Positions 2,903 to 9,027 of a stretch of 33,502 nucleotides of DNA are shown here, piece after piece. This DNA comes from a bacterium (GTDB lineage Bacteria; Desulfobacterota; S145-22), in the NCBI GenBank assembly GCA_026986155.1, contig JALSPC010000126.1, forward strand, positions 1 through 33,502, written 5' to 3'. A program made the position numbers and the translations under genes. Every line of letters begins with the position of its first letter. Position 1 is the first letter of the stretch. The notes beneath the pieces are model-generated. The model worked only from the letters and a program-made list of their open reading frames with translations. It was not told the DNA's origin and ran no database searches.

Positions 2903-5900
2903 ATGGTTTCCATCGGTATCGACATTGGATCCGTAAGCACGGATGTTGCTGTTTTAGACGGTGAAGGAAAAGTCCTCCTAGACCGTTACATTCGCAATTT
3001 TGGAAAGCCCATTCAGACCGCCCTGGGCGTTTTGGAGGATCTGGTCCGGACCTACGGCGCCGGTGGAATCGAGGCCGTCGCATTCACGGGAACCGGCGGC
3101 AAGCTGATGGCGCGTCTGAGCGGGGGTTTTTTCGCCAATGAGATTATCGCCCAGACCAAGGCCGTCACCCGTTTTCATCCGGAGGCCCGAACCATCATGG
3201 ACGTGGGGGGAGAGGATTCGAAGCTGATCCACCTGGAGGAAGAGGGCGGAACGGTCAAGATTCGTGACTTCTCCATGAACACCCTTTGCGCCGCGGGGAC
3301 GGGATCGTTTCTCGACCAGCAGGCCACGCGGCTCGGATACACCATTGAGGAACTGGGCGAAATCGCCATGCGGTCCCAAAATCCCCCACGGATCGCGGGA
3401 CGCTGCAGCGTCTTCGCAAAATCGGACATGATCCATCTCCAGCAGATCGCCACCCCGGACGAGGATATTCTTGCGGGGCTTTGTTACGCCCTGGCAAGAA
3501 ACTTCAAGAGCAGCATCGGGAAGGGGGAGACCTTCAGGCGCCCCGTGGTATTCCAGGGAGGCGTGGCGGCAAACGTGGCGATGCGGAAGGCCTTTACGGA
3601 CGTGCTAGACCTGGCGGAGGGCGAGCTCATCATTCCGGAACATTTCACCGCCATGGGGGCCATCGGGGCGGTTCTTCGCGCCCTGGAAGAAGGCATCCGG
3701 ACGGGGGCGCCGAACCTGGAGGCCGTTCGGGAATACCTTACGAAGATCGAGCGTGACGACAAACCGATGGAACCCCTAAGCCTCTCGTCCAATCACGACA
3801 CCTCGGGGCAATCCCGGAAGAGCGGATCCCGAGAAAACATCCGGGGCTATCTCGGGATCGATGTGGGGTCCATCAGCACCAACCTGGTGGTCCTGGATGA
3901 AAACCTGGAACTGGTCACGAAGCGCTACCTCATGACCGCCGGCAAACCCATCGAGGCGGTGCGATTCGGCTTGAAGTCGATCGAGGAGGAACTGGGCGGG
4001 GACGTGGAGATCCTCGGGGCGGCCACCACCGGCTCCGGGCGTTATCTCATCGGAGACTTCGTGGGCGCCGACGTGGTGCGCAACGAGATCACCGCCCAGG
4101 CGACGGCGGCGGTCCACATCGACCCCAAGGTGGATACCATCTTCGAGATAGGAGGTCAGGACTCCAAGTTCATCAGTATCGACGACGGGGTGGTCGTCGA
4201 CTTCGAGATGAACAAGTCGTGCGCGGCGGGGACGGGCTCTTTCCTGGAAGAGCAGGCGGAACGCCTGGGAATCTCCATCAAGGAAGAATTCAGCGAACTG
4301 TCCCTCTCCGCCCGGCGCCCCGTGCGAATGGGGGAACGGTGCACCGTCTTCATCGAATCGGATCTCGTCCACCACCAGCAGAAGGGCGCCAAGACGGATG
4401 ACCTGGTGGCGGGGCTTTCCTACTCCATCGTCCTCAACTATCTGAACCGGGTGGTGGGCGACCGGAGGATCGGCCGCAATATCTTCTTTCAGGGCGGAAC
4501 GGCCTTCAACAAGGGAGTCGTGGCCGCGTTCGAAAAGGTTCTGGGACGTCCCGTCACGGTACCGCCCAACCACGACGTAACGGGGGCCATTGGAGCGGCG
4601 ATCCTGGCGAAAGAGTACATGGCCCAACAACCGGGCCCCTCCAACTTCAAGGGTTTCGACCTTTCGGAACGCTCCTATACCATTAAGACCTTCGAGTGCA
4701 AGGGGTGTGACAACCGCTGCCTCATCCGGCAGGTGAGTATCGAAAACGAGGCCCCGCTCTACTACGGAAGTCGATGCGAGAAATACGACGTGGTCAAGAA
4801 AAAGAAACGGGTGGACCTCCCCAATCTCTTTGAGGAGCGGGAGCGCTATCTCCTGGAAGAATACGGGGGAGACCCCGAGGATCCCACACGCCCGGATGTC
4901 ATCGGGATCCCCAGGCTCCTCTTCTTCCATGAATATTTCCCCTTCTGGCTCCGGTTTTTCAAGGAACTCGGATTTACCCCCATGATCTCCGCCCCCACCC
5001 GCCGGGATTTGATCCGCAAGGGGGTCGAATCGATCGTGGCGGAGACCTGTTTTCCGGTGAAGGTAGCACACGGCCACGTCATCGACCTGCTGGAGAAGGG
5101 GGTATCGAACCTCTTCCTGCCCAGCGTCATCGACCAGCCCCCGCTGGTGAAAGACGCGGTGAACAGCTTCAATTGCCCCTACGCCCAGACCCTTCCCTAC
5201 ACTCTCCCCTCCGCCATCGACTTCTCCCGGTACCGGACGCGCCTCCTGTCCCCGGTGATTCGCTTCGGGCAGGGCAAGAAGATTCTGAAGGGCGACCTGG
5301 CGAAGTTAGGAAAGATGCTGGGGGTTTCCTCCTCAAGGATTGCTTCCGCCTACGAAAAGGCCTGGCGGGTGCAGCAACGGTTTTACGACAGGCTCATCGC
5401 GCGGGGACGGGAAGTCATGGCGGATCTTGCGCGGAAGGGAGACACGGGGATCGTGGTGGTGGGACGCCCCTACAACACCTGTGACAACGGCGTGAACCTG
5501 AACCTCCCGAAAAAACTGCTCGACCTGGGGGTCCTTCCCATTCCCATGGATTTCATCCGGTTGGATGACTTGCCCGCCACGGAGGGCGTGCGCGATATCT
5601 ATTGGAAGTATGGACAGAAGATCCTGGCCATGGCAAAGAAACTTCGGGAACGCGAAAATCTCTATTCCCTCTACATCACCAATTTTGGGTGCGGTCCCGA
5701 TTCTTTTATCAGTCACTTCTACCGTGAGGAGAGCAAGGGGAAGCCCTATCTCCAACTGGAGATCGACGAACACAGCGCGGATGCCGGTGCCATCACCCGC
5801 TGCGAGGCCTTTCTGGACAGTCTGAGAAACGTGAAAAAGAAGGAGACAAAACCCCGTCCCTGGCGTCCATCCACGGTCAAGGCCCGGAAAGTCGCCCTCG

Positions 5901-7108
5901 GCCTTGCCGACAGGGTTATATACGTCCCCCACATGGCCGACCACGCATACGCCTTCGCGGCTGCGTTCGAGGCCTGCGGCCTGAAGGCGGACGTCTTCCC
6001 GGAATCCTCGGAGGAAACACTGGAATACGGCCGCAAATACACGACGGGCAAGGAATGTTTCCCCTGCATCGTGACCACGGGGGACCTGATACGCATTACC
6101 AAGAAACCGGATTTCGACCCGGAAAAGGTGGCCATATTTTTCCCTTCCGGAAGCGGTCCCTGCCGTTACGGGCAGTATCACCGGTTTCACCGGCTCCTCC
6201 TGGATCAATTGGGATATCCAAACCTTCCCATCTTCGCCCCCGAGCAGGACGAGTCTCTCTACGAGGACGTGGCGGCCCTGGGAAAGAAATTCCAGCGGCT
6301 CGCCTGGCAGGGGATCGTGGCCGTGGACCTGTTGTACAAGATGCTCCACGAAACTCGTCCCTACGAGGTAGAACAGGGCGCCACAGATGAGATTTACCGG
6401 CGTTGTCTCAAGCGCATCTGCGAAGATATCCGAAACGAACGGAATCTCATCGAAACATTCGAGGCGATTATCGAGGATTTCAGGACGATTGAGGTGGACC
6501 GGTCTGTCAAAAAGCCCCTTATCGGAATCGTGGGCGAGATATTCGTTCGTCTGAACCGGTTCAGCAACGAGGACGTCATCCGGAAGGTGGAGGCCCTGGG
6601 GGGCGAGGTGTGGCTTTCCCCCCTCTCCGAGTGGGTCTACTACACCAATTTCACCGCCCGGATGCGCAACAGCCTCCAGAAAAAGTGGCTGAGCAATCTG
6701 AAGCTCTCCCTCGTCGAGCATTTCCAGAAAAAGGACGAGGAAATGCTGATGAATTTCCTCTCCCGGTACCTGCGCAATTCCCACGAACCGGAGACGGAAG
6801 AAATCATCGAGAAGGCCCGCCCCTATCTCCATCCCACCTTCGAGGGTGAGGCGATCCTGAGCGTGGGAAAGGCCATCGATTTGAAGGATAAGGGCGCGAG
6901 TGGTATCATCAACATCATGCCCTTCACCTGCATGCCCGGCACCATCGTCAGCGCCATTCTGAAACGATTCAGGGAGGAAAACCAGCATCTTCCCATCCTG
7001 AACATGGCCTACGACGGACAGGAGCAGACGAATACCTTGACCCGCCTGGAGGCCTTCATGTATCAGGCAAGGGAGTATCAACGACAAAATCAACGTTTAC
7101 AAACGTAG
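2903..7108 (+). CDS. Large CoA-dehydratase activase-related protein: two BcrA/BadF-type ASKHA ATPase domains plus DUF2229/CoA-activase C-terminal region
   Basis: Duplicated IGIDIGSVSTDVAVLD and YLGIDVGSISTNLVVLD; duplicated NTLCAAGTGSFLDQQATRLG and NKSCAAGTGSFLEEQAERLG; downstream Cys motifs CKGCDNRC, AETCFPVKVAHGH, KECFPCIVTTGDL. Confidence 0.93.
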   Translation: MVSIGIDIGSVSTDVAVLDGEGKVLLDRYIRNFGKPIQTALGVLEDLVRTYGAGGIEAVAFTGTGGKLMARLSGGFFANEIIAQTKAVTRFHPEARTIMDVGGEDSKLIHLEEEGGTVKIRDFSMNTLCAAGTGSFLDQQATRLGYTIEELGEIAMRSQNPPRIAGRCSVFAKSDMIHLQQIATPDEDILAGLCYALARNFKSSIGKGETFRRPVVFQGGVAANVAMRKAFTDVLDLAEGELIIPEHFTAMGAIGAVLRALEEGIRTGAPNLEAVREYLTKIERDDKPMEPLSLSSNHDTSGQSRKSGSRENIRGYLGIDVGSISTNLVVLDENLELVTKRYLMTAGKPIEAVRFGLKSIEEELGGDVEILGAATTGSGRYLIGDFVGADVVRNEITAQATAAVHIDPKVDTIFEIGGQDSKFISIDDGVVVDFEMNKSCAAGTGSFLEEQAERLGISIKEEFSELSLSARRPVRMGERCTVFIESDLVHHQQKGAKTDDLVAGLSYSIVLNYLNRVVGDRRIGRNIFFQGGTAFNKGVVAAFEKVLGRPVTVPPNHDVTGAIGAAILAKEYMAQQPGPSNFKGFDLSERSYTIKTFECKGCDNRCLIRQVSIENEAPLYYGSRCEKYDVVKKKKRVDLPNLFEERERYLLEEYGGDPEDPTRPDVIGIPRLLFFHEYFPFWLRFFKELGFTPMISAPTRRDLIRKGVESIVAETCFPVKVAHGHVIDLLEKGVSNLFLPSVIDQPPLVKDAVNSFNCPYAQTLPYTLPSAIDFSRYRTRLLSPVIRFGQGKKILKGDLAKLGKMLGVSSSRIASAYEKAWRVQQRFYDRLIARGREVMADLARKGDTGIVVVGRPYNTCDNGVNLNLPKKLLDLGVLPIPMDFIRLDDLPATEGVRDIYWKYGQKILAMAKKLRERENLYSLYITNFGCGPDSFISHFYREESKGKPYLQLEIDEHSADAGAITRCEAFLDSLRNVKKKETKPRPWRPSTVKARKVALGLADRVIYVPHMADHAYAFAAAFEACGLKADVFPESSEETLEYGRKYTTGKECFPCIVTTGDLIRITKKPDFDPEKVAIFFPSGSGPCRYGQYHRFHRLLLDQLGYPNLPIFAPEQDESLYEDVAALGKKFQRLAWQGIVAVDLLYKMLHETRPYEVEQGATDEIYRRCLKRICEDIRNERNLIETFEAIIEDFRTIEVDRSVKKPLIGIVGEIFVRLNRFSNEDVIRKVEALGGEVWLSPLSEWVYYTNFTARMRNSLQKKWLSNLKLSLVEHFQKKDEEMLMNFLSRYLRNSHEPETEEIIEKARPYLHPTFEGEAILSVGKAIDLKDKGASGIINIMPFTCMPGTIVSAILKRFREENQHLPILNMAYDGQEQTNTLTRLEAFMYQAREYQRQNQRLQT

Positions 7109-7122
7109 GAAAGGTGGAATCC

Positions 7123-9027
7123 ATGTCGAAAAAGATCGCGCTGATCCTCTGTCTCGCCTTGTTCATTCCTCTCGTCACAGGCTGCGGGGAATCCCTGAAG
7201 TTCTGGAAAAAAAAGAGTGAAGTGGAGGTAGTCAACAAGAAACTGCCCCCTTTTGAACAGCTCTTCAACCGAACAGTGGAGATGTACAACGCCAAGCAGT
7301 ACAAGGACGCCATCCAGGCCTTCCTCTTCCTGCGGGAGAACTATCCCAGGAAGGGAAGCTACCAGGCGCGCATTACCCTATACATCGCGGACAGCCATTA
7401 CAAATTGAAGGAGTATCCCGAGGCTATCGCCAACTATGAGGAATTCATCAAGCTCTATCCCACAAGTCCTGATGTGCCCTACGCCACTTTCCAAATCGGC
7501 ATGTCCTACTACAAGCAGCGGCGCACCTACGACCGTGACGCCACCTTCGTCCGAAAGGCCATCACCTACTTCGAAAAGGTCCTGCGGATCTCCCCGCCGG
7601 GGGTTCTCGTCAACGAGTCCATCCGGATGATAGCCTTCTGTCAGCGCGAGCTCTCTCTGCACGAATTTTTCATCGCCGACTTTTACCTCAGAACCCATCA
7701 TTACAAGGCAGCGATCCTGCGCTTCAAGGGTATCCTCAGAAAATTCTACAGCCTGAAGGTCCAGGACCGGGCCCACCTGGGCATCGCCAAGGCCTATCTC
7801 AAACTGAAAAACCGAAACGCGGCCTATCGCCATCTCAGCTTCGTGGCAAAGCATTACCCGCAGACACCTTACGGCAAAGAGGCGTGGAAGCTGCTCCAGA
7901 AGGACTACAAGGTTGCCGCCCTTAAGGACCTGCCTAACGTGACCTTCCCCAGGAAAATGCCGGCGGAGACGGTTCAGGATATCGAAACAACGTCTGAGAA
8001 AAAGGCGATCCACAAGACGTCGGAAGAAACTGCCGCTCCCGAGAAGGAGAAGAAGGAAGCGGCGCCCGCCTCCAAGCCCGCAGCCGTGAAGGTGGCCAAA
8101 AAGGCGCCGGCACCCGCTCCCAAGGTTTACTATCCGCCCGTGGGAAAAACGGTAAAGGTCAAAAAAGAAAAATCCATGCCGGAAGAAAAGACCTCCACCC
8201 CCGCCCCGGCGGCGAAAGAGGTGACGAAAACGGCCACCAAACCAGCGCCGGAAAAGCCCGTCACCGTCCAGCCTAAGGCGGAGAAACCCGTAGCGCAGAT
8301 TAACAAGACCCGGGAATCTGAGGAAGTTACGGCTGAAAAGGAGGCGCCCGCACCCCCCAAGGCTGAGGTAAAGGCGAAGCCTGCCGCCGCGCCGGCACCG
8401 CCCGCCGAGGTCGTAAAAAAGACAAAAGTAAAATCCCCTCCTCCCGCGCCAGAAAAGGGAAAAGCCTCTACCCAGGCGTTACATAAAGCGCCTGAGACAA
8501 AACCATCCAAGGTGGCGAAAGCGGAAAAAGAGACGCCAAAGGTCAAGACCTTGGTGAAAACGGACCGCCTTCCCCCGAAGGGGCGGAAAGCGGCCGGCGA
8601 TAATTCCCTTGGCCCCGTTGGCGCCATCGACACGCGTCTTCCCATTCACATCGCCTCGGATCATGTGGAGGCGCAACAGGGGAAGAACTCCGTGCGCTTC
8701 TACGGGAACGTGGTCGTGACCCAGAAGGACGTAACCATGAAATGCGACGACCTCACCGCCTTTTACGTAGCGGGGGGCAAAGCCATCGACAGGATCATCG
8801 CCCACGGGAACGTCTCCATCTCGCAGCGCGATAAGAAGGTCATGTGCGGCAGGGCCGTTTTCTACAACGCGGCCCGGAAGATCGTCTTGGAAAAATCACC
8901 CACCGCCTGGGACGGAAAAAACAAGTTAAGCGGTAACAAAATGGTCCTGTTGCTGGATAAAAACGAGATACAGATCCTCGGGTCACGGAAGAAACCCACG
9001 GAACTGGTAATCTATCCCGAGAAGTAA
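7123..9027 (+). CDS. Fusion lipoprotein: BamD-like TPR domain, Lys/Ala/Pro-rich linker, LptA/OstA-like C-terminal domain
   Basis: Signal peptide with lipobox LVTGC; BamD-like LFNRTVEMYNAKQYKDAIQAFLFLRENYPR...YPEAIANYEEFIKLYPTSPDVPYATFQIGMSYYKQ; low-complexity K/A/P/E linker; LPIHIASDHVEAQQGKNSVRFYGNVVVTQKDVTMKCDDLTAFY from about 8638 resembles OstA/LptA. Confidence 0.85.
   Translation: MSKKIALILCLALFIPLVTGCGESLKFWKKKSEVEVVNKKLPPFEQLFNRTVEMYNAKQYKDAIQAFLFLRENYPRKGSYQARITLYIADSHYKLKEYPEAIANYEEFIKLYPTSPDVPYATFQIGMSYYKQRRTYDRDATFVRKAITYFEKVLRISPPGVLVNESIRMIAFCQRELSLHEFFIADFYLRTHHYKAAILRFKGILRKFYSLKVQDRAHLGIAKAYLKLKNRNAAYRHLSFVAKHYPQTPYGKEAWKLLQKDYKVAALKDLPNVTFPRKMPAETVQDIETTSEKKAIHKTSEETAAPEKEKKEAAPASKPAAVKVAKKAPAPAPKVYYPPVGKTVKVKKEKSMPEEKTSTPAPAAKEVTKTATKPAPEKPVTVQPKAEKPVAQINKTRESEEVTAEKEAPAPPKAEVKAKPAAAPAPPAEVVKKTKVKSPPPAPEKGKASTQALHKAPETKPSKVAKAEKETPKVKTLVKTDRLPPKGRKAAGDNSLGPVGAIDTRLPIHIASDHVEAQQGKNSVRFYGNVVVTQKDVTMKCDDLTAFYVAGGKAIDRIIAHGNVSISQRDKKVMCGRAVFYNAARKIVLEKSPTAWDGKNKLSGNKMVLLLDKNEIQILGSRKKPTELVIYPEK

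Follow-up and report, generated by a model that had tools for sequence, protein, structure and literature searches.

A BamD lipoprotein with a tethered LptA-type domain recurs in Desulfobacterota and may couple outer-membrane protein insertion to lipopolysaccharide transport

Introduction

BamD is a lipoprotein that, as part of the BAM complex, helps to insert proteins into the outer membrane, and LptA is a periplasmic protein of the lipopolysaccharide (LPS) bridge. The two are normally separate proteins of separate machines, both of them antibiotic targets, and the only link commonly seen between outer-membrane protein (OMP) insertion and export of LPS is the folding of LptD by BAM. In E. coli BamD, residues R197 and Y62 matter for substrate recognition, and BamD recognises the beta-signals of its substrates (PMC10945584). 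LptD is a slow substrate of BAM, and LptD intermediates stall on BAM touching BamD (PMC13067283). The OstA domains of the Lpt bridge pair with each other across it, and proteins in which as many as four OstA domains are fused are known (PMC3944529). Also, an outer-membrane lipoprotein, LptM, acts in the maturation of LptDE (PMC10567701).

Here we analyse a predicted lipoprotein, encoded in a 33,502-nucleotide stretch of DNA (the window), in which a BamD is continued by an LptA/OstA domain. With BamD (YfiO; TIGR03302/PF13525) it has in common the lipobox, the TPR repeats, the arginine equivalent to R197, the single copy in the genome and the fold; however, canonical BamDs of Desulfobacterota mostly have 230-300 residues, whereas the window protein continues with a 240-residue tether and then a complete domain of the LptA type. 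With LptA (TIGR03002/PF03968) it shares a complete beta-taco with both edge strands, the hydrophobic pattern and a fold match to 2r1a. In contrast to the usual LptA, a soluble periplasmic protein encoded with lptC and lptB, the fused domain is attached to BamD on a lipid-anchored protein without lpt neighbours, is extra to the LptA of the genome without being its closest relative, and scores below the equivalog cut-off. As in the multi-OstA fusions (PMC3944529), OstA is joined to another envelope domain, but those proteins combine several OstA domains, whereas in the window protein OstA is combined with a subunit of BAM. LptM (PMC10567701) would resemble the fusion as an outer-membrane lipoprotein acting on maturing LptD, but it is small, has neither a beta-taco nor a BamD part and is at most a functional analogue. 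We found no description of a BamD-LptA/OstA fusion in the open-access literature, and within that literature the statement of the initial annotation that the architecture is not known to have been described holds.

Results

One open reading frame joins a lipid-anchored BamD to an LptA-type domain

The gene is a single unbroken reading frame of 634 codons at positions 7123-9027 of the forward strand, encoding a lipoprotein of 634 amino acids. There is an in-frame GTG at 7114, and the ATG at 7123, with AGGAAAGGTGG just 5' of it, is preferred as start; it lies 14 bases past the stop of the upstream reading frame. The features of the gene product are collected in Table 1. The lipobox residue Cys21 is invariant across 26 aligned fusions, and the OstA domain is full length, running from an N-terminal PIHI edge strand to a C-terminal VIYP strand. 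The four-part reading of the frame given by the initial annotation (lipobox, BamD, linker, LptA/OstA) is thus confirmed by the open frame, by profile matches and by fold matches, and the K/A/P/E-rich linker, put there at roughly 200 residues, turned out to be a disordered tether of 240 amino acids, 62% of them P, A, K or E, with a net charge of +22.

Table 1. Features of the fusion gene (coordinates of the window) and the evidence for each.
Feature	Position	Strand	Basis
Shine-Dalgarno-like AGGAAAGGTGG, before ATG 7123	7107..7117	+	read from sequence
Lipoprotein signal peptide MSKKIALILCLALFIPLVTG, followed by C21; lipobox VTGC, Gly at +2	7123..7185	+	sequence
BamD domain, residues 30-262, five TPR-like helix pairs	7210..7908	+	TIGR03302, PF13525, AlphaFold2, Foldseek
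Arg200, equivalent of E. coli BamD Arg197	7720..7722	+	alignment with E. coli BamD
Disordered K/A/P/E-rich tether, residues 263-502	7909..8628	+	pLDDT, composition, within-family divergence
LptA/OstA beta-taco domain, residues 503-634	8629..9024	+	PF03968, TIGR03002, phmmer, Foldseek

Structure prediction with AlphaFold2 yielded two confidently modelled domains and, between them, a stretch of about 220 unstructured residues, with pLDDT values mostly above 90 for BamD, mostly below 50 for the tether and mostly 82-93 for OstA, which was modelled as a 12-stranded beta domain. Neither in the first model, made from an alignment of 26 fusion proteins, nor in the second, made from the window and related loci, did the BamD and OstA domains take up a fixed mutual arrangement (pTM 0.45 and 0.54).

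The window is one contig of a draft genome of 197 contigs, a circumstance that might favour an artefact in which two genes were joined by misassembly or by a misread stop. However, the same fusion occurs in four other genomes of the family of the window and also in eight other families, its frame is open throughout, and in the three of those four genomes whose flanks were read the fusion gene likewise follows an acyl-CoA dehydratase activase gene and precedes a histidine kinase gene. These independent genomes rule out an assembly error, which the initial annotation had named as a possible source of the fusion, and we regard the probability of an artefact as negligible. The fusion gene adjoins metabolic and two-component genes and its neighbourhood varies between lineages; neither lpt nor bam genes lie beside it in the window, and no conserved neighbourhood with lpt genes was seen among the fusion loci whose flanks were read. 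The reading frame directly upstream (window 2903-7108, forward strand), whose position is conserved in the family, encodes a protein of 1401 amino acids in which two stretches are of the acyl-CoA dehydratase activase type (TIGR00241) and the C-terminal part is long.

The N-terminal half is the only BamD of the genome

Profile searches matched residues 7-234 to BamD (TIGR03302) with 175.9 bits, at a cut-off of 81.4, and residues 45-212 to YfiO (PF13525) with 104 bits. The relatives of solved structure found by sequence were the BamDs of Rhodothermus and E. coli, and Foldseek aligned this half with the solved BamDs 3qky and 7nri_D (TMt 0.73-0.90). In an alignment of the E. coli BamD of the MG1655 record with 36 BamDs from fusions and 69 unfused ones, the position equivalent to Arg197, a residue tied to the genetic interaction with BamA as well, was occupied by arginine in every one (36/36 and 69/69), and that of Tyr62 by tyrosine or phenylalanine in all fusions, tyrosine in the window protein. 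A generic TPR protein is therefore ruled out as the identity of the N-terminus by the TIGR03302 match, the fold match and the kept equivalents of R197 and Y62, and the same evidence bears out its initial assignment to BamD. A stand-alone bamD was looked for and is absent, TIGR03302 finding the fusion gene only in this genome; the other YfiO matches are CpoB/YbgF-like proteins, one of them adjoining tolB-pal, and a large TPR protein. By these characters the window protein is a real BamD, predicted to be a working one.

The C-terminal half is an LptA-type domain additional to LptA

Residues 509-613 match LptA/LptD_N (PF03968) with 54.9 bits (cut-off 20.4), and residues 503-633 match LptA (TIGR03002) over positions 5-142 of the 142 of the model (61.7 bits, E 6.5e-17), narrowly missing the equivalog cut-off of 71.7. 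With 61.7 versus 12.6 bits, the domain is of the LptA type and not of the LptC type. A phmmer search matched it to E. coli LptA (2r19) and Foldseek to LptA 2r1a (TMt up to 0.81), so that profile and fold assignments both support the beta-taco that had been proposed for the C-terminus. The TIGR03002 scores of other fused domains were 76.7 (family f20), 71.2 (f8), 70.8 (f23) and 37.5 bits (f11). Comparison of the hydrophobic pattern with that of LptA gave 30 agreeing and 8 discordant columns, and both edge strands are present; the kept edges and pattern may allow pairing and perhaps LPS binding. A conserved cysteine pair was sought in the fused OstA domains, most of which have one cysteine or none.

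The genome also encodes a full set of Lpt and Bam components apart from the fusion. A stand-alone LptA of 183 amino acids lies on contig C76 in the run lptC-lptA-lptB-rpoN, LptE and BamA were both found, and LptD is located on the ends of two contigs of this draft genome, its first piece having an N-terminal OstA domain of its own. A separate LptA-type gene occurs in 27 of the 28 fusion genomes, and the fused OstA therefore comes on top of LptA. The initial annotation had asked whether the genome also encodes a stand-alone lptA; it does, so the fusion does not replace LptA. In genome G084 (95% complete), alone among the fusion genomes, a search for a separate LptA found none, which may be due to a gap or to the fused OstA standing in. 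Substitution for the OstA domain of LptD is ruled out by the presence of that domain, and substitution for LptE by the presence of LptE, which went undetected in 1 of 21 fusion genomes.

The fusion recurs in at least nine families of Desulfobacterota

The spread of the fusion was mapped by a census of 168 genomes of Desulfobacterota, many of them drafts, followed by reading of the long BamD frames; counts are from the frames listed, and one fusion (G116) was read in part. At least 28 of the 164 BamD-bearing genomes, and at least 9 of 73 families (f1, f8, f9, f11, f20, f23, f24, f42 and f54), carry the fusion. Named records with the fusion include Syntrophaceae UBA1163, UBA2188, UBA2208 and L.E.D.62 and Deltaproteobacteria RBG_16_49_23 and CG03_45_14, and in the same scan BamD was unfused in Smithella, Desulfobulbus, Desulfovibrio and Syntrophobacteraceae. 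Tether length across the fusions ranges from 28 to 301 residues, with 169-301 within the family of the window and 28-50 in f11, f23, f24 and f54. The long flexible tether described initially therefore exists in the window protein, but it is not a general feature of the fusions.

Other additions were observed around BamD. In the f20 proteins L020, L187 and L191, a second low-complexity stretch is followed by a third, NTF2-like domain (Cds6_C, PF24125; residues 766-866 of L020 with 72 bits, L187 and L191 matching Cds6_C by sequence), so that BamD, OstA and NTF2 are found in one chain. Directly 3' of bamD, a small gene for an NTF2-like (DUF4440) lipoprotein is located at L063:5107-5508, L064:7872-8273, L117:6509-6907 and L032:2211-2612, overlapping bamD by four bases in three fusions and lying close behind an unfused bamD in L032. 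The downstream lipoprotein and the fused NTF2-like domain of f20 suggest a functional link of such domains to BamD. Two BamDs of family f59, L201 (genome G149) and L202 (G122), carry another kind of C-terminal extension, about 200-250 residues long, which in L202 gave a weak AMIN match (E 0.0036, below the cut-off). The C-terminus of BamD thus seems to be a recurrent site of added domains in Desulfobacterota. Separately, five frames of 360-425 residues without BamD (L051, L052, L053, L054 and L056) have OstA at their C-terminal side, and L051 seems to be another kind of envelope protein that bears OstA.

The fused OstA domain is conserved whereas the tether drifts

Within the family of the window, amino acid identities amount to 74-87% for BamD, 69-87% for the fused OstA and 79-91% for the stand-alone LptA, whereas the tether reaches 25-48% with 11-55% gaps. 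Synonymous sites were saturated, dN/dS was not usable and dN alone was compared, giving 0.07-0.21 for the fused OstA versus 0.46-0.97 for the tether. Since OstA is conserved while the tether drifts, the OstA domain is under selection, and such a contrast in divergence marks a functional domain carried by a spacer.

A tree built from 62 OstA domains placed the fused ones apart from the LptA encoded in the same genome, which rules out a recent duplication of the genome's own lptA. A single clade of fused OstA domains was not rejected (p-AU 0.43), and 5 label changes were needed on the OstA tree and 6 on the BamD tree, one of the latter stemming from a protein cut by a contig end (L070). The fusion is thus old or has arisen a few times, a single and a multiple origin both being compatible with the trees.

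Discussion

The physical coupling of OMP and LPS biogenesis that had been suggested at the outset is plausible and fits the evidence. We propose that the tethered beta-taco on a BAM-docked BamD pairs with LptD and couples assembly of the LPS translocon to BAM, and we give this specific reading a little less than an even chance. As in BAM complexes elsewhere, the N-terminal lipid and the BamD body would be bound to BamA on the inner side of the outer membrane, and the beta-taco would pair edge to edge with the N-terminal beta-taco of LptD during insertion by BAM or just after, LptA being a possible further partner. Such pairing might hold or template the periplasmic domain of LptD, block LPS delivery to an unfinished translocon, or hand LptD over to the LptA bridge, and the outcome would be assembly of the LPS translocon at the site of BAM. 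The partners that this would require (LptD with a beta-taco of its own, LptE, LptA and BamA) are all encoded in the genome. The recognition residues kept in the BamD half, the completeness of the OstA domain and its conservation within the family also speak for this reading.

The place of action is suggested by the fusions with short tethers. In f11, f23, f24 and f54, the 28-50 residues between the domains correspond to at most about 10-18 nm when stretched (at 0.36 nm per residue), and therefore the general mechanism cannot depend on reaching the inner membrane; OstA most likely works near BamD, on the outer-membrane side. At the outer membrane, the beta-taco of LptD, whose stalled intermediates touch BamD (PMC13067283), would be its natural partner, with LptA beyond it, given that pairing of one OstA with another is known from the Lpt bridge (PMC3944529). 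LptM offers a precedent for an outer-membrane lipoprotein with a part in LptDE maturation (PMC10567701). On the other hand, the gene has no lpt or bam neighbours and its surroundings differ among lineages, the models give the two domains no fixed arrangement, and most families of Desulfobacterota lack the fusion, which the process therefore does not generally need.

The protein could instead serve the LPS side, with the BamD half as nothing but an outer-membrane anchor. OstA would then be one more LptA-like subunit, or an acceptor of LPS, where the bridge ends at the outer membrane, and would supply fresh LPS to the sites of protein insertion by BAM. An OstA of LptA type and not LptC type, complete at both edges and with its hydrophobic pattern kept, would suit such a role, and the tethers in the family of the window are long enough to cross the periplasm. 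However, the short-tether versions could hardly span it, nearly all fusion genomes have a separate LptA-type gene, and the supposed anchor keeps the substrate-recognition residues and is the only BamD of the genome; we consider this explanation rather unlikely. That the beta-taco acts as a chaperone, catching unfolded beta-barrel substrates by strand pairing and feeding them to BamD and BamA, with LptA ancestry being incidental, appears clearly improbable to us: conservation of the LptA pattern at the edges and in the hydrophobic columns goes beyond the need of a generic strand-pairing surface, even if BamD recognises substrate beta-signals (PMC10945584), a flexible arm beside BAM would be apt for holding substrates, and other BamDs of Desulfobacterota have long C-terminal additions, one of them possibly AMIN-like.

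An OstA domain that binds another envelope lipid, a glycan or a partner unrelated to Lpt is, in our view, slightly less probable still. Some fused domains are quite divergent, as in f11, and the fused domains form lineages apart from the LptA of each genome, but most of those tested score near or above the TIGR03002 cut-off (f20, f8 and f23). Pairing with LptD next to BAM is the preferred reading. In its broader form, the fusion would be a built-in, selected coupling device between BAM and Lpt in at least nine families of Desulfobacterota, with the OMP inserter bearing a beta-taco docking site of its own for the LPS bridge and one polypeptide coupling insertion of LptD to assembly of the LPS bridge, a view that we put forward tentatively.

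That nature has repeatedly kept a BAM subunit joined to a beta-taco is evidence from genomes for a use in having the two machines close together, and the fusion provides a directly testable protein for studies of LptD maturation, LPS export and the outer-membrane barrier. In several lineages of Desulfobacterota, a single protein may form a physical connection between two machines of envelope assembly that otherwise stand apart.
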